NCBI RefSeq assembly: GCF_019930585.1
Contig: NZ_CP082839.1
Span: 3,406,001-3,470,000 of the forward strand
Length of the DNA: 64,000 bases
From: Sphingomonas nostoxanthinifaciens
GTDB taxonomy: Bacteria > Pseudomonadota > Alphaproteobacteria > Sphingomonadales > Sphingomonadaceae
Direction: 5' to 3'
Position numbers and translations under genes: made by a program. Under the pieces are notes generated by a model, which saw only the letters and a program-made list of their open reading frames with translations, did no database searches and had not been told where the DNA came from. Shown here piece after piece: positions 1,881 through 50,972 of this stretch (position 1 is its first letter; every line of letters starts with the position of its first letter).

Positions 1881-1909
1881 TTGCACTTGCGAATGCAGTC
1901 CGGTTGATA
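1881..1909 (+). promoter_or_regulatory. Possible sigma-70-type promoter for the transporter transcript
   Basis: TTGCAC at 1881-1886 and TTGATA at 1904-1909 are separated by exactly 17 bases and sit just after the nasS stop. A transcript starting near 1916 would begin a few bases before the first leader hairpin. The match to consensus is only moderate, so this is an inference from position and spacing. Confidence 0.35.
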
Positions 1910-1922
1910 CAGGTTCCTCGGT

Positions 1923-1977
1923 AACGCGCGATGGAGCGCGTTTAGCGGGGAACGCGCCAGCGTCGGCGGCGAGCCCC
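1923..1977 (+). promoter_or_regulatory. Paired-hairpin NasT (ANTAR) target in the transporter leader
   Basis: Hairpin 1 has a perfect 7-bp stem (AACGCGC at 1923-1929 with GCGCGTT at 1936-1942) and hexaloop GATGGA. Hairpin 2 has an inner 4-bp stem (1955-1958 with 1965-1968), hexaloop AGCGTC, and an outer GGGG/CCCC stem (1947-1950 with 1974-1977). Known ANTAR targets are two hairpins with six-base loops carrying A at position 1 and G at position 4. Loop 2 fits fully; loop 1 has the G4 but G instead of A at position 1. The pair sits directly upstream of a strong terminator, as NasT regulation requires. Confidence 0.7.
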
Positions 1978-1993
1978 TCCAACAGATCAGCAG

Positions 1994-2041
1994 AGCCGCT
2001 GTCTGACGCCTGACCTTGTCGGGCGTCGGCAGCGGCTTTTT
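1994..2041 (+). terminator. Leader attenuator (intrinsic terminator) ahead of the nitrate transporter
   Basis: A long stem pairs 1994-2001 with 2030-2037 (8 bp, AGCCGCTG arm). After a one-base bulge it continues 2003-2010 with 2022-2029, including one T-G pair. A run of five T ends at 2041. It lies between nasS and the transporter, about 36 bases before the transporter ATG, so it would block expression unless antitermination occurs. Confidence 0.85.
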
Positions 2042-2076
2042 GCTTGGGCTCAACCCATTCTTGAAGGGGGTTTTCC

Positions 2077-3315
2077 ATGGCGACGGCGTATTGGAAGGGT
2101 GCGAACACCAAGACAGGGGGCGGCTTCTGGTCGAGCGGGCATACGCCGACACTCATTGCCGCGTTCCTCTACTTCGATCTGGCGTTTATGGTGTGGGTCC
2201 TGCTCGGGCCGTTGGCACCCGCCATCTCGAAGGCCTTGGCGCTGACGCCCGCCGAAAAGGGTTTCATGGTGGCGACGCCGACGCTTGCCGGCGCATTGCT
2301 GCGTGTCGTCAATGGGCTTCTCGTTGATCGCATCGGACCCAAGCGTTCAGGGGCGATCAGTCAGCTGATCGTTATCGGCGGGCTACTGTCCGCCTATCTT
2401 CTCGGCGTCGACAGTTTCGGTGGCACGATCGCGCTGGGCGTGATCCTGGGCTTCGCGGGCGCGAGCTTCGCAATCGCGCTGCCGCTAGCCAGTCGTTGGT
2501 ATCCGCCCGATCATCAAGGCAAGGCAATGGGCGTTGCCGGAATGGGCAACTCAGGCACGGTGCTCGCCTCACTATTCGCGCCTGGTCTCGCCAAACTGTT
2601 CGGCTGGAATACAGTGCTGGGACTCGCCTGCATCCCGCTGGCCATCGTGTTCGTGATCTACATGGCGATGGCAAAGGACGCGCCAGGTCGCCCCGCGCCG
2701 AAGTCGCTAAGCGAGTACCTGCATCCGCTGAAATCCGCCGATGCCTGGTGGCTGATGGGCTTCTACAGTGTCACCTTCGGCGGCTTCGTTGGACTTGCGG
2801 CCAGTCTGCCCATCTACTTCACCGATCGCTTCGGCCTGACCCCGATCACCGCCGGCTATTGCACCGCCGCGTGCGTGTTCGCCGGCTCGCTGGTCCGGCC
2901 GATCGGTGGCGCGCTCGCCGACTCGATCGGCGGTATAAAGATGCTGATCGGCGTCTTCATCGTCGCGGCATTGGCGCTGGCTGCGGTCAGCATCGCGCCG
3001 ACCGTCGGGAGCGCGCTGGCATTCTTTGTCGTCGCGATGCTTGCCCTTGGAGTCGGCAATGGCTCGGTGTTTCAGCTTGTGCCACAGCGCTTCGGCGCCG
3101 AGATCGGCGTAATGACCGGGCTCGTCGGCATGGCTGGTGGCATCGGCGGCTTCTATCTCGCCTCTTCGCTCGGACTTGCCAAGCAGTGGACGGGAAGCTT
3201 CGCGCCAGGTTTCCTGATCTTTGCCGCGCTGGCGCTCGTGGCGCTGGTCAGCGTCTTCGTGGTCAAGAGCCAATGGCGAAGGAGCTGGGGCGCGGCCGAG
3301 GGCGTCCGGATCTGA
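2077..3315 (+). CDS. narK: NarK/NasA-type nitrate/nitrite transporter (MFS)
   Basis: 412 residues with about twelve hydrophobic membrane segments. The MFS motif-A-like loop (NGLLVDRIGPKRSG) follows helix 2. The nitrate-porter signature appears as GMGNSGTVLA after helix 4, with the second half-repeat around GNGSVFQLVP. It moves nitrate (possibly exchanging nitrite) across the inner membrane for the assimilatory reductases encoded downstream. The ATG at 2077 follows AAGGGGG with good spacing. Its transcript carries the leader hairpins and terminator at 1923-2041, so it should be made only when NasT is active. The porin gene follows 54 bases later and is probably co-transcribed. Confidence 0.92.
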   Translation: MATAYWKGANTKTGGGFWSSGHTPTLIAAFLYFDLAFMVWVLLGPLAPAISKALALTPAEKGFMVATPTLAGALLRVVNGLLVDRIGPKRSGAISQLIVIGGLLSAYLLGVDSFGGTIALGVILGFAGASFAIALPLASRWYPPDHQGKAMGVAGMGNSGTVLASLFAPGLAKLFGWNTVLGLACIPLAIVFVIYMAMAKDAPGRPAPKSLSEYLHPLKSADAWWLMGFYSVTFGGFVGLAASLPIYFTDRFGLTPITAGYCTAACVFAGSLVRPIGGALADSIGGIKMLIGVFIVAALALAAVSIAPTVGSALAFFVVAMLALGVGNGSVFQLVPQRFGAEIGVMTGLVGMAGGIGGFYLASSLGLAKQWTGSFAPGFLIFAALALVALVSVFVVKSQWRRSWGAAEGVRI

Positions 3316-3369
3316 ATTGAACGGGTGGGCGAGCCGACACGGCGCCCACCCGCTCCTAGGGGAAATTTG

Positions 3370-4575
3370 ATGAAACATGTCATTTTGACGGCGGCCACTT
3401 TGGCCGTCGCCGGGCCGGCTTACGCCCAAAGCGTGTCGCTCAAACCGTTCGTTGATCTTCGTACGCGCTACGAAAACGTCGATCAGGACGGTGTCGCTAG
3501 CGATGCAGATGCCCTCACCATCCGCGCGCGCGGCGGCCTCGAAGCGGACGCCGGCGGATTATCGGCACTGATCGAGGGCGAGGGCACACTAGCTGCCGTC
3601 GATCATTATTATGATGGATTGAATGGTGCCGCCACGCGCCCACTCGTCGCCGACCCGCAGAACATCGCGCTGTACCGAGCGCAGCTACGTTACGCCCGGC
3701 CCGGCTGGGCGATCACGGCGGGAAGGCAGCGCATCGCGCTCGACGACGAGCGTTTTGTGGGTGCGGTCAACTTCCGCGATAACGGCCAGACATTCGACGC
3801 GGTGCGGTTCGAGTGGAATCCGGTCAAGCGACTGAAGGCGGATGTGAGTTATTCCTGGAGCGTGCGCACGATCTGGGGCATCGACGGGCACGACGCGCGG
3901 CAACAGGCGGTTTCCGGCAACAACGTGTTTGCCAACGTCGGTTACCAGACTTCGTTTGGCACGCTGACGGGCTTTGCCTATCTGATCGACCAGGATGAGT
4001 TGGCGGTGCAGGGCTATCGCCTGTCGAGCCAGACGTACGGCGTCCGCTTCGCTGGTGCGCACACCTTTTCCAAGCAGGCCAAGCTTTCCTACCAGGCCAG
4101 CTATGCACGCCAATCGGATTATCACCGCAATCCGAACGACTACACAGCCGGCTACTATTTGGTCGATGGCTCACTCGATGTGGCTCAGTTCAAGATCGGC
4201 GTGGGGTATGAGGTGCTCGGTGCCGACCACGGCCTGGCGCTGACCTCGTTCCAGACGCCGCTTGCCACCGGCTTCAAGTTCCAGGGCTGGGCGGACAAGT
4301 TCCTCACGACTCCGCCCGACGGCGTGCGCGACCTTTACGGAAGCGTTGGATATGGATTGAAGACGGGTACCGCGCTTGGCGTGTTCACGTTCCAGGGCGT
4401 CTATCACCACTTTGACAGTGATCGCCTGGTGCGGCGCTATGGAGACGAGATCGATGCGCTTGCCAGCATGAAGATCAAGCGCACCACGCTCTCGCTCCGC
4501 TATGCCGACTATCGGGCGCACGGCTTTGCCACGGATACCCGCAAGCTGTGGCTGGAGGTCGACTGGGCGTTGTAA
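3370..4575 (+). CDS. Alginate-export-family outer-membrane porin in the nitrate locus
   Basis: 401 residues. A signal peptide ends near AYAQS (about residue 20). The rest is alternating polar/aromatic beta-strand sequence typical of an outer-membrane barrel of the alginate-export (AlgE-like) family, ending in LWLEVDWAL with the hydrophobic C-terminus expected of barrel proteins. The ATG at 3370 is chosen because AGGGGA lies just upstream and the signal peptide starts there; longer in-frame starts lack both. Lying between the nitrate transporter and nirB, it most likely lets nitrate or nitrite through the outer membrane. That substrate is inferred from context only; the family name describes alginate. 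Confidence 0.82.
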   Translation: MKHVILTAATLAVAGPAYAQSVSLKPFVDLRTRYENVDQDGVASDADALTIRARGGLEADAGGLSALIEGEGTLAAVDHYYDGLNGAATRPLVADPQNIALYRAQLRYARPGWAITAGRQRIALDDERFVGAVNFRDNGQTFDAVRFEWNPVKRLKADVSYSWSVRTIWGIDGHDARQQAVSGNNVFANVGYQTSFGTLTGFAYLIDQDELAVQGYRLSSQTYGVRFAGAHTFSKQAKLSYQASYARQSDYHRNPNDYTAGYYLVDGSLDVAQFKIGVGYEVLGADHGLALTSFQTPLATGFKFQGWADKFLTTPPDGVRDLYGSVGYGLKTGTALGVFTFQGVYHHFDSDRLVRRYGDEIDALASMKIKRTTLSLRYADYRAHGFATDTRKLWLEVDWAL

Positions 4576-4640
4576 GAAAGATGCTGCGAATGCGAAGAAT
4601 CGCTTGCTGACGCGCTGCGCTTCCGGCACCCTTCGATTGT

Positions 4641-4688
4641 TCGCGGCAATGCCGCCGCGAGCCCATAGCCAAGCTCTCCAATGTCGGA
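4641..4688 (+). promoter_or_regulatory. Paired-hairpin NasT (ANTAR) target in the nirB leader
   Basis: Hairpin 1 is a perfect 7-bp stem (TCGCGGC 4641-4647 with GCCGCGA 4654-4660) closing hexaloop AATGCC. Hairpin 2 has a short TCC/GGA stem (4677-4679 with 4686-4688) closing hexaloop AATGTC. Both loops have A at position 1 and G at position 4, the ANTAR-target signature, and they resemble each other. The second stem is short and extends only through mismatches. A terminator begins about 56 bases downstream. Confidence 0.75.
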
Positions 4689-4743
4689 CGGGTCTGGTGC
4701 ATCGCCCGATCGGGGTTCATCTCCGGTCGATTGTGATGATGGC

Positions 4744-4794
4744 AAGGCCGCCATGCAGGCGCTGGGTTTCCAGCGTCCGCATGGCGGCCTTTTT
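4744..4794 (+). terminator. Leader attenuator (intrinsic terminator) ahead of nirB
   Basis: A 13-bp perfect stem pairs 4744-4756 (AAGGCCGCCATGC) with 4779-4791. After one mismatch it continues for eight pairs (4758-4765 with 4770-4777, one G-T) around a GTTT loop, and is followed by T 4790-4794. It ends about 18 bases before the chosen nirB start. A reading frame runs through it, but the structure and the paired hairpins upstream argue that it is untranslated leader. Confidence 0.9.
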
Positions 4795-4812
4795 CGTTTC
4801 CGGAGCATGACG

Positions 4813-7311
4813 ATGGAATTCCTCGACGAGAGTGCCGAAGAAATGGCTACGGTCGGTACGACCAAAGCCGAGAGTGACCGGGGGCTCGTTGTCATCGGCA
4901 ACGGCATGGCCGGTTGCCGCGCCGTCGAGGAACTCCTCGAGCGCGAGCAGGGTCGATATCAGGTCACCATCTTTGGTGCTGAGCCGCACGTGAACTACAA
5001 TCGCATCATGCTGTCGCCGGTGCTGGCCGGCGAGAAAACTTTCGACGAGATCGTCATCAACGACCGTGCCTGGTATGCCGACAACGGCATCGAATTGATC
5101 GCCAGCGACCCTGTGGATGCGATCGATCGCGAGGCGAAAACCGTAACGGCGCGGTCGGGCCGCACCGTCGCCTATGACAAACTGCTGATCGCGACCGGGT
5201 CCGATCCGTTCATCATCCCCGTGCCGGGCAAGGATCTGCCCGGGGTCATCACCTTCCGCGACATGGCAGATGTCGACCACATGCTCGGAGCCGCTGAGAA
5301 GGGCGGGAATGCGGTGGTCATCGGCGGCGGCCTTCTCGGGCTGGAGGCGGCGCACGGCCTGACGCTGCGTGGCATGAAGGTGACCGTGCTACACCTGCCG
5401 GGCACGTTGATGGAACGGCAGCTCGACGAGGCGGCAGGCTGGCTGCTCAAGAGCGCGCTCGAGGCGCGCGGACAAACGATCCTCACCAAGGCAGACACCG
5501 CCGAGATCGTGGGTGAGCATCACGTGGAGGGCGTGCGGCTGAAGGACGGCACGCTGATCCCGGCAAGTCTCGTGGTGATGGCGGTCGGGATCCGTCCCTC
5601 AGTGAAGCTCGCGCGCGACGCCGGGCTCGAGGTCGGTCGCGGCATCAAGGTCGACGACCATATGGTGACGTCCGATCCCGATGTACTGGCGGTGGGCGAG
5701 TGCGTCGAGCATGACGGTCTCGTCTACGGTCTGGTCGCACCGCTCTGGGAGATGTGTCGCGCGCTGGCGGACGGACTTGTCGAGCGGCACAGCGGCTACA
5801 AGGGCTCGGTGACCTCGACCAAGCTCAAGGTTGCCGGGCTCGACGTGTTCTCAGCGGGCGACTTCCTCGGCGGCGACGGTGCGGAGGATATCGTGCTACG
5901 CGATGCCAGCCGCGGCATCTACAAGCGCGTCGTCGTGAAGGACGACCGCGTCGTCGGCGCGGTACTCTACGGCGACACCAGTGACGGCGGGTGGTATTTC
6001 GACCTGCTAAAAAAGGGCGAGGACATCTCGCCGATCCGCGACATGCTGATCTTCGGTCAGGCCTATGCCTCCGGAGGGGGGCAGGGGGACCCTAGCTCAG
6101 CCGTTGCGGCGCTCTCGGACGATGCCGAGATCTGCGGCTGCAACGGCGTCTCCAAAGCAAGGGTCGTCCAATCGATCGTCGGCGGCGCAGTCAGTCTCGA
6201 TGCGGTGCGGTCGACGTGCAAGGCCTCTGCCTCGTGCGGCTCTTGCACCAACCTCGTCGAACATCTGCTGAGCCTCACGCTCGGGGCCGATTATGGCGGC
6301 GCGCGGACGACCAAGACGCTCTGCAAATGCACCAGCTTCGGCCATGGTGATGTCCGGCGCGAGATCGTGGCGCAAGGAATGCGCTCGATACCCGAGGTCA
6401 TGCAGAAGCTGCACTGGTCGACCCCCGATGGCTGCTCGGGTTGCCGCCCGGCGCTTAATTACTATCTGCTGTGCGCCTTGCCCGGCGACTATAAGGACGA
6501 TCAGCAGAGCCGCTTCGTCAACGAGCGGATGCACGCAAACATCCAGAAGGACGGCACCTATTCGGTAGTGCCACGGATGTGGGGTGGCCTTACGACACCC
6601 AAGGAGCTGCGCGCGATCGCCGATGTGGTCGAGAAGTTCAACGCGCCGATGGTGAAGGTTACCGGCGGCCAGCGGCTCGACATTTTCGGCATCAAGGGCG
6701 AGGATCTGCCGGCCGTCTGGGCCGATCTCAATGCTGCTGGCATGGTCTCGGGCCATGCCTACGGCAAATCGCTGCGTACCGTAAAGACGTGCGTGGGCAC
6801 GGACTGGTGCCGGTTCGGCACACAGGATTCAACCGGACTCGGCGTCAAGACCGAGCAGATGACGTGGGGCTCGTGGATGCCGCACAAGTTCAAGATCGCC
6901 GTCTCGGGATGCCCGCGAAACTGCGCGGAAGCGACGATCAAGGACTTCGGCGTGATATGCGTCGACAGCGGCTACGAGCTCCACGTCGGCGGCAATGGCG
7001 GCATCAAGGTCCGCGTTACCGATCTTCTCTGCAAGGTCGCGACCGAGGAAGAAGCGATGCATTATTGTGCGGCGTTTACCCAGCTCTATCGAGAAGAGGC
7101 GCATTACCTGGAACGCACGGCGCCCTGGATCGAGCGGATTGGGCTTGAGTACGTCAAGAGCCGCGTGGTCGAGGATGGGGAGGGTCGCGATGCGCTGGCC
7201 GCACGCTTCCTGTTCTCGCAGCGTTTCACGCAGGACGATCCCTGGGCCAAGCGGGTCGCCGGCGAGGACGCACAATTCCACCAGCCGCTAATGATGGCAG
7301 CGGCAGAGTGA
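4813..7311 (+). CDS. nirB: NirB: assimilatory NAD(P)H nitrite reductase, large subunit
   Basis: About 832 residues. In order: an FAD/NAD(P)H pyridine-nucleotide oxidoreductase module (VVIGNGMAG near residue 20, a second GGGLLGLEAA glycine motif), a BFD-type [2Fe-2S] domain (CGCNGVSKA then CxxC in SCGSC), and the siroheme/[4Fe-4S] reductase domain with TCVGTDWC and SGCPRNC supplying the cluster cysteines. It reduces nitrite to ammonium in the cytoplasm. The ATG at 4813 has GGAG seven bases upstream; 4807 is also possible. Upstream in-frame codons would run through the leader terminator. The nirD frame overlaps its stop. Confidence 0.95.
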   Translation: MEFLDESAEEMATVGTTKAESDRGLVVIGNGMAGCRAVEELLEREQGRYQVTIFGAEPHVNYNRIMLSPVLAGEKTFDEIVINDRAWYADNGIELIASDPVDAIDREAKTVTARSGRTVAYDKLLIATGSDPFIIPVPGKDLPGVITFRDMADVDHMLGAAEKGGNAVVIGGGLLGLEAAHGLTLRGMKVTVLHLPGTLMERQLDEAAGWLLKSALEARGQTILTKADTAEIVGEHHVEGVRLKDGTLIPASLVVMAVGIRPSVKLARDAGLEVGRGIKVDDHMVTSDPDVLAVGECVEHDGLVYGLVAPLWEMCRALADGLVERHSGYKGSVTSTKLKVAGLDVFSAGDFLGGDGAEDIVLRDASRGIYKRVVVKDDRVVGAVLYGDTSDGGWYFDLLKKGEDISPIRDMLIFGQAYASGGGQGDPSSAVAALSDDAEICGCNGVSKARVVQSIVGGAVSLDAVRSTCKASASCGSCTNLVEHLLSLTLGADYGGARTTKTLCKCTSFGHGDVRREIVAQGMRSIPEVMQKLHWSTPDGCSGCRPALNYYLLCALPGDYKDDQQSRFVNERMHANIQKDGTYSVVPRMWGGLTTPKELRAIADVVEKFNAPMVKVTGGQRLDIFGIKGEDLPAVWADLNAAGMVSGHAYGKSLRTVKTCVGTDWCRFGTQDSTGLGVKTEQMTWGSWMPHKFKIAVSGCPRNCAEATIKDFGVICVDSGYELHVGGNGGIKVRVTDLLCKVATEEEAMHYCAAFTQLYREEAHYLERTAPWIERIGLEYVKSRVVEDGEGRDALAARFLFSQRFTQDDPWAKRVAGEDAQFHQPLMMAAAE

Positions 7312-11035: not shown

Positions 11036-12750
<1,715 letters not shown>

Positions 12751-50210: not shown

Positions 50211-50345
50211 TTGGTTGCCGGTGGGACTGCCCGGTGCGAACCGCTGCGAACATCCCTGAGGCGATCCATCATCCTTGGGGGCTGTCCCTGTCCGGACCCT
50301 GGTCCGGTGCATATGGTCCCCACCTGACGTTTACGGCGTCAGAGG
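50211..50345 (+). ncRNA. ssrS: 6S RNA (ssrS)
   Basis: The stretch between zapA and the 5-FTHF cyclo-ligase gene is where 6S RNA is found in many proteobacteria. A closing stem pairs GGTGGGAC (50222-50229) with GTCCCCACC (50316-50324, one bulged C). A central CCGGAC/GTCCGG hairpin lies inside, between asymmetric bubbles that would mimic an open promoter. A terminal CTGACG/CGTCAG hairpin (50324-50342) follows. 6S RNA binds the housekeeping RNA polymerase in stationary phase. Exact ends are estimates. Confidence 0.75.
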
Positions 50346-50363
50346 ATATTCCGGAAAACGGCC

Positions 50364-50972
50364 ATGGCGGTCCCACCACCCCCACCCCTCTCCCCACTAG
50401 ACGAGAAGCGCACGATCCGCGCCACGCTCCGGGCGTCGCGCGCCGCGCATGTCGCGCGGCTGCGGGACGAAGGCTGTCATGATGCCGCGCATGCCGCTGC
50501 GGCGCATGCCCTGGCACATGTTCCGGCCGGCGCAACGGTCGCGCTGTATCGGTCGCTCGGCGACGAACTCGATCCTGCACCATTTGCGGACCTGCTGATC
50601 GCGGCGGGGCATCGGCTCGCTTTGCCGCATGTCGATCGCGGCGATCCGACCATGCGCTTTCTCGCATGGCATCCCGAGGCGCCGCTGTTCGAGGGCATGT
50701 TCGGCCTTCGCCAGCCTCATGACGCAAGCGAGCCGGTCGTGCCCGACGTGATCGTCACGCCGCTGGTCGGCTTCGATCGCGCTGGCGGCCGCATCGGCCA
50801 GGGCGGTGGCTTCTACGATCGTGCGTTCGCGCTTTTGCCCGGCGCGTTCCGAATCGGCTATGGCTGGTCGGCGCAGGAGATCGCGACCGTGCCACGCGAT
50901 CCGTGGGACATCGCGCTCGACGGAATCGCGACCGAGCGGGAGTGGATCGACGTGACGAAGACCGGGCAATGA
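50364..50972 (+). CDS. 5-formyltetrahydrofolate cyclo-ligase
   Basis: 202 residues. It has the family N-terminus (LDEKRTIRATLRASRAAH), YRSLGDELDPAPFADLLIAAG, the phosphate/substrate-binding PLVGFDRAGGRIGQGGGFYDR and the WDIALDGIATE end. It recycles 5-formyl-THF to 5,10-methenyl-THF. It lies directly after 6S RNA and may be processed from the same transcript. The downstream DUF2842 gene overlaps it by ATGA. Confidence 0.95.
   Translation: MAVPPPPPLSPLDEKRTIRATLRASRAAHVARLRDEGCHDAAHAAAAHALAHVPAGATVALYRSLGDELDPAPFADLLIAAGHRLALPHVDRGDPTMRFLAWHPEAPLFEGMFGLRQPHDASEPVVPDVIVTPLVGFDRAGGRIGQGGGFYDRAFALLPGAFRIGYGWSAQEIATVPRDPWDIALDGIATEREWIDVTKTGQ

Follow-up and report, generated by a model that had tools for sequence, protein, structure and literature searches.

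Two NasT-dependent transcription attenuators very probably control a single nitrate-assimilation locus of Sphingomonas nostoxanthinifaciens. The locus lies in the 64,000-nucleotide (nt) stretch analysed here, hereafter the window (positions 3406001-3470000 of a 4.3 Mb genome assembled as a single contig), and its genes, all in one orientation, follow the order nasT, nasS, leader 1, NarK-type transporter (narK), porin, leader 2, nirB, nirD, nasA and cobA. The initial annotation had placed paired hexaloop hairpins followed by a terminator in front of both the transporter and nirB. Hairpins and terminators were found as described, but the number of hairpins per leader is three and not two, as revealed by a comparison of 80 NasT loci in which Sphingomonas species are the nearest named relatives. 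Its proposal that both elements behave as NasT/ANTAR attenuators is borne out, as far as sequence comparison can tell, by an invariant G at loop position 4 (G4), covarying stems, mutual exclusivity between the third hairpin and the terminator, and detection of each leader by a model built from the other.

Structure of the two leaders

Leader 1 spans approximately positions 1916-2041 and, as all leader and gene features of the locus, is read on the forward strand. Its first hairpin, H1 (1923-1942), pairs 1923-1929 with 1936-1942 around the loop GAUGGA (1930-1935), which carries G at positions 1 and 4; 5 of its 7 pairs show two-sided changes among 45 relatives. The second, H2, is enclosed by an outer stem (1947-1977 in total) and exposes the loop AGCGUC (1959-1964), with A at position 1 (A1) and G4; two-sided changes are seen in 8/8 outer and 3/5 inner pairs. 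The third hairpin, H3 (CAGC-AGAGCC-GCUG, 1988-2001, loop at 1992-1997), runs into an intrinsic terminator with a U run (1994-2041; z = -7.5, 94.6% of cells paired). The fold of the whole leader has a z of -5.4, no shuffle was equally stable for either the whole leader or the terminator, and only 1 of 1000 dinucleotide shuffles contained as many as its three hexaloop hairpins.

Leader 2 (approximately 4634-4794) is built in the same way. H1 (4641-4660) pairs 4641-4647 with 4654-4660 around the loop AAUGCC (4648-4653), with two-sided changes in 6/7 pairs among 41 relatives, and H2 (4674-4692) presents AAUGUC at 4680-4685, with such changes in 5/6 pairs. H3 (AUGGC-AAGGCC-GCCAU, 4739-4754, loop at 4744-4749) overlaps a strong terminator with a U run (4745-4794; z = -8.7, 99.8% of cells paired, two-sided changes in 5/12 pairs). 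The whole fold reaches a z of -6.2, again without any equally stable shuffle for leader or terminator. A strict count gives two hexaloop hairpins, a number attained in 5/1000 shuffles when A1 is demanded and in 34/1000 when A or G is allowed. Among the four loops of the initial annotation, three (AGCGUC, AAUGCC and AAUGUC) do have both A1 and G4, as it stated, and GAUGGA has G4 alone; with H3 included, G4 occurs in 6/6 and A1 in 5/6 hairpins of the window.

H2 of leader 2 is separated from H3 by a spacer hairpin region (4693-4737) that places this leader in a long-spacer subclass. Across nirB leaders the loop-to-loop distance between H2 and H3 is bimodal, 25-27 or 45-58 nt, and partly occupied by stems; in the long-spacer leaders, that of the window included, the extra sequence mostly folds on itself into a hairpin. 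The alignment of this region (A4) is too uneven to count covarying pairs. Since a lengthened linker breaks EutV antitermination (PMC8934654), this spacer hairpin may, by analogy, keep the ends of H2 and H3 near each other.

The third hairpin and the terminator

In both leaders the 5' arm of the terminator consists of the H3 loop and the 3' side of the H3 stem, so that the last hairpin overlaps and excludes the intrinsic terminator. H3 is present in the alignable leaders of the window's clade, as a CAGC-ARAGCC-GCUG type before narK and a GGC-AARGYC-GCC type before nirB. It was located by motif anchoring, because a strict finder missed many narK leaders owing to a mismatch held in the terminator stem. 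When the leader RNAs were truncated just after H3, the median pair probabilities of H1, H2 and H3 were 0.97, 0.99 and 0.94 for narK and 1.0, 1.0 and 0.99 for nirB; with the full terminator present the median for H3 fell to 0.0 while H1 and H2 were retained. Leader 2 of the window follows this pattern closely, with probabilities of 0.99-1.0 for H1-H3 in the truncated RNA and H3 passing from 0.99 to 0 on addition of the terminator. In these folding models, H3 and the terminator compete as expected for a switch. H3 is thus likely the antiterminator hairpin, and the pair seen by the initial annotation is H1-H2.

Conservation, covariation and covariance models

Alignments of 45 narK leaders (A1 set), 41 nirB leaders (A2 set) and 22 distant leaders (A3 set) were examined. 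G4 is present in 45/45 narK and 41/41 nirB leaders in each of the three hairpins, and the terminator, too, is conserved across both sets. Loop A1 is invariant in both H3s (45/45 and 41/41) and nearly so in H2 of narK (42/45) and H1 of nirB (40/41), with G replacing A in 27/45 narK H1 and 16/41 nirB H2 loops. An invariant G4 next to a variable A1 agrees with the structure of the EutV-RNA complex, in which G4 makes the sole base-specific contact (PMC8934654).

Covariation in orthologues, set beforehand as a test, was found in the stems of H1 and H2 (at least 3 bp each, in both leaders) and in the nirB terminator. The scores of stems and terminators were reached by 0/500 shuffles and fell when the pairing partners were slid. 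Because kinship alone can beat shuffles without any structure, more weight is given to the slide control and to the number of pair types; the two agree except in the narK terminator, whose further pair types alone do not rise above shuffles. H3 of leader 1 is silent on covariation since its pairs are almost invariant.

Two covariance models were built, R1 from narK leaders and R2 from nirB leaders, and each detects the other leader. R1 also finds most nirB leaders (79 loci), with up to 54 bits and 25.5 bits (E = 0.0055) for that of the window, and R2 finds narK leaders (79 loci), the one in the window with 28.8 bits (E = 4.5e-4). This cross-detection is the independent part of the result, because both models include the window's own sequences. 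A search of the whole genome with R1 and R2 returned only the two leaders and the reverse strand of one terminator; reverse-strand matches were rejected as extra leaders, being terminator palindromes.

The same data bear on whether the hairpins could be ordinary terminators or repeats without a regulator, their hexaloops having arisen by chance. Strong terminators would suffice to stop transcription, and their palindromes do score on the opposite strand too. However, at least three hexaloop hairpins occur in 46/47 narK and 35/44 nirB leaders of relatives against 0% of shuffles, G4 is invariant, and the covarying stems lie outside the terminator. These comparative statistics largely refute a chance origin, which is scarcely credible.

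A single ANTAR regulator and the proposed mechanism

The position of nasT and nasS upstream of both leaders is confirmed by family matches. nasT (65-661, start codon uncertain) encodes a response-regulator-like protein with an ANTAR RNA-binding domain (Pfam PF03861, E = 1.4e-18), and nasS (658-1878), whose start overlaps the nasT stop (658-661), an NrtA/NMT1-like nitrate/nitrite sensor partner (PF13379, E = 5e-63); an adjoining REC-like plus ANTAR protein and NrtA-like sensor constitute a NasS-NasT pair. They are followed by the NarK-type nitrate/nitrite transporter of the major facilitator superfamily (2077-3315; TIGR00886, E = 3e-80, below its curated cut-off), a porin-like outer-membrane protein (Alginate_exp, 3370-4575; PF13372, E = 4e-7) and nirB (4813-7311; TIGR02374, E = 3e-278). 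A Pfam ANTAR search of the whole genome found NasT as its sole ANTAR protein. As this one protein is encoded beside the leaders, the suggestion that a single regulator serves both appears the economical reading of the sequence data.

From work on Paracoccus, Klebsiella, Enterococcus and Bradyrhizobium (PMC3795266, PMC5424462, PMC7496416, PMC3369931, PMC6759348) we infer NasT binding, nitrate dependence, the direction of control and separate promoters, and likewise a successive H1-H2-H3 order. Without nitrate or nitrite, NasS would hold NasT, as is known in Paracoccus, and a polymerase starting 5' of each leader would halt at the intrinsic terminator for want of free NasT. In the presence of nitrate, the freed NasT would bind the nascent hexaloops of H1 and H2 and then stabilise H3, thereby occupying the 5' arm of the terminator. 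Read-through of leader 1 would give expression of narK and the porin gene, and that of leader 2 expression of nirB, nirD, nasA and cobA.

Promoters and separate control

A promoter-like box precedes each leader: GCACTTGC (1884-1891), with its CTTG approximately 44 nt 5' of the H1 loop, in leader 1, and CTTGCT (4603-4608), at 45 nt, in leader 2. With few exceptions, leaders have the CTTG 42-45 nt (narK) or 43-45 nt (nirB) 5' of the H1 loop. A consensus sigma-70 scan found no promoter, which is to be expected as the -35 is of the CTTG type. The conserved boxes suggest that the two leaders have separate promoters, and such a -35-like element at a fixed distance makes separate gating of narK and nirB plausible.

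Alternatively, nirB could lack a promoter of its own and be gated twice, by attenuators acting one after the other on a single long RNA that starts at the narK promoter. The shared orientation of the genes, the weak -10 before leader 2 of the window and the empty sigma-70 scan all agree with such an arrangement, which we nevertheless consider rather unlikely: the CTTG before H1 is kept in nearly all nirB leaders, many of those in relatives have a TATGTT/TATGCT-like -10, and loci without an intervening porin gene still keep the nirB leader.

A TGCA(N)TGC(A/G)AA-like element recurs near both promoter boxes (approximately 1884-1900 and 4580-4608) and in distant clades, and is possibly a candidate activator site.

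The start of nirB

Leader 2 lies within a reading frame that, according to the initial annotation, could be mis-called as the start of nirB. As a possibility this is right, for the frame runs open across the terminator, from ATG 4681 to 7311, and in 30/44 relatives an in-frame start codon occurs 5' of the point where the terminator ends. A single annotated relative with a nirB leader was checked, a plasmid of Sphingomonas sp. NIC1; its called start falls after the leader 2 terminator, so mis-calling is a risk and not the rule. The true start is likely ATG 4813, preceded at 7 nt by GGAG (4802-4805) in a GGAG...ATGGA context conserved in relatives. Translation from ATG 4681, which would make the hairpins intragenic, gains some appeal from a frame open at least as far as H3 in 43/44 relatives. 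This conserved start context argues against it, as does NirB homology, which begins at residue 25 after 4813; moreover, the upstream in-frame stops of relatives lie at widely differing distances, many relatives have no start codon there, and an intragenic terminator complete with its U run would be self-defeating. A coding leader 2 is therefore very improbable.

Distribution among relatives

At 75% NasT identity or more, the limit used for the close clade, a nirB leader was found in 44/48 judgeable loci. Sphingopyxis-type loci have the narK leader only, and in Novosphingobium and Croceicoccus (L060, L077) the nirB leader is present again. On the NasT tree the nirB-leader label is clustered but needs six changes, with no single origin; gain, loss or both have thus occurred more than once. 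The porin gene was considered as the reason for the gap before nirB and rejected, since the leader is found with and without it.

Among 40 non-sphingomonad NasT loci (L158-L197) the detected leaders mostly have two hairpins and a few, L161 and L171 among them, have three; hairpins are spaced by 18-28 nt in the commonest type and by up to 63 nt in others. Judged by this comparison, the H1-H2-H3 array seems to have been elaborated in sphingomonads. The two-leader arrangement itself exists elsewhere: outside the Alphaproteobacteria, one genome (L196) has hexaloop leaders in front of narK (1095-1450) as well as nirB (4850-5170).

Other sphingomonad-family genomes carry a further NasT-type leader at a distant locus, either before an NrtA-like binding protein (L145, 1488-1623; L148, reverse strand; L150, 1601-1737) or before an apparent second assimilatory nitrate reductase (L146, 1787-1893; L149, reverse strand). 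The predicted NasT-type regulon is larger in those genomes than in that of the window. A candidate third leader in genome G117 (L147) was dropped for its lack of hexaloops. Sphingomonad plasmids also bear nas loci (L198, L199, L201, L202), L198 with both leaders, and L198 and L201 were typed as mobilizable. One sphingomonad nas locus (L037) comes from a record labelled Actinobacteria, probably a mis-binned contig.

Observations against two active attenuators

Several observations weigh against two NasT-dependent attenuators. No Rfam 15 family matches either leader at the gathering score, nor did relaxed thresholds give a useful match. Four close relatives (L009, L037, L040, L047) have no nirB leader; in these loci nirB lies shortly 3' of narK or the porin gene, or past an unrelated stretch (L040). 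In leader 1 of the window H2 is disfavoured (pair probability 0.01-0.08): the lowest-energy fold extends H1 into the outer stem of H2, and in the truncated RNA H2 reaches 0.01 and H3 merely 0.17. Leader 2 has a weak -10 (GGCACC region) and, at 58 nt, the longest H2-H3 gap, longer linkers being those that abolish antitermination by EutV (PMC8934654).

The last two features, together with a short inner H2 stem, could mean that leader 2 is active in relatives and degenerate in this strain, leaving the narK leader alone under NasT. A model score of 92.8 bits, intact A1 and G4 in all three loops and the near-complete pairing of H1-H3 in the truncated RNA speak against such decay, which we regard as improbable.

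Flanking features

Two remnants of a KatG catalase/peroxidase gene (11641-12569), which looks broken, lie shortly 3' of the nas locus, and a tyrosine-type phage integrase (13318-14613, reverse strand) is found near both. This region may be the border of a mobile element. A 6S RNA reaching the gathering score is located at 50221-50377.

Comparison with known systems

The closest precedent for the regulator pair is Paracoccus denitrificans, which also has adjacent nasTS genes and leader hairpins 5' of nitrate genes (PMC3795266, PMC5424462). There, NasT binds the nasA leader and the nitrate-dependent dissociation of the complex has been shown (PMC3795266), and hairpin HI is required for growth on nitrate (PMC5424462); binding in the present case is predicted by analogy. 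Paracoccus has one leader with HI and HII, whereas two leaders with three hexaloops each are found here. The Klebsiella nasF leader and NasR share nitrate-responsive ANTAR antitermination and the A1/G4 hexaloop (PMC3369931, PMC7496416) but involve a NIT-ANTAR one-component sensor and one leader. In Bradyrhizobium diazoefficiens the NasT targets form a different gene set, and in a nasT mutant under denitrifying conditions narK-bjgb-flp goes up, not down (PMC6759348).

EutV of Enterococcus faecalis offers the parallel for a single ANTAR protein that acts on multiple leaders (eutP, eutG, eutS, eutA) in the same locus (PMC3369931, PMC8934654). In its targets, too, the antiterminator hexaloop overlaps the 5' arm of the terminator: H3 matches the P2 hairpin in position, the 13-nt AGCAANGRRGCUY there (PMC3369931) having its counterpart in the AGC-ARAGCC-GCU of leader 1. 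EutV targets are dual hairpins with 5-12 nt linkers, unlike the three hairpins, longer gaps and spacer hairpin described here. Earlier work had already described the basic mechanism and ANTAR loci with more than one leader, the latter being established in eut and a prediction in Bradyrhizobium, so that two leaders in one locus are not new in kind. A literature search, with most subscription journals outside it, found no paper on NasT leaders in Sphingomonas and no report of a three-hexaloop leader.

Implications

The leaders form a well-supported RNA family without an Rfam match, in which hairpin number and spacing vary naturally, and which bears on whether ANTAR proteins bind two hairpins at once or one after another (PMC8934654). 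We tentatively suggest, while thinking it unlikely as a whole, that sphingomonad NasT leaders act as three-stage hexaloop relays, with two recruitment hairpins and then the antiterminator, and that the amount of NasT needed to open each leader may differ. Different thresholds are conceivable because the hairpin without A1 is often H1 before narK but H2 before nirB; if so, uptake and reduction would be switched on in a set order. Many sphingomonads appear, from their sequences, to place the transporter and the nitrite reductase under separate NasT leaders, an arrangement that matters for the annotation of the nirB start and for the prediction of nitrate use.

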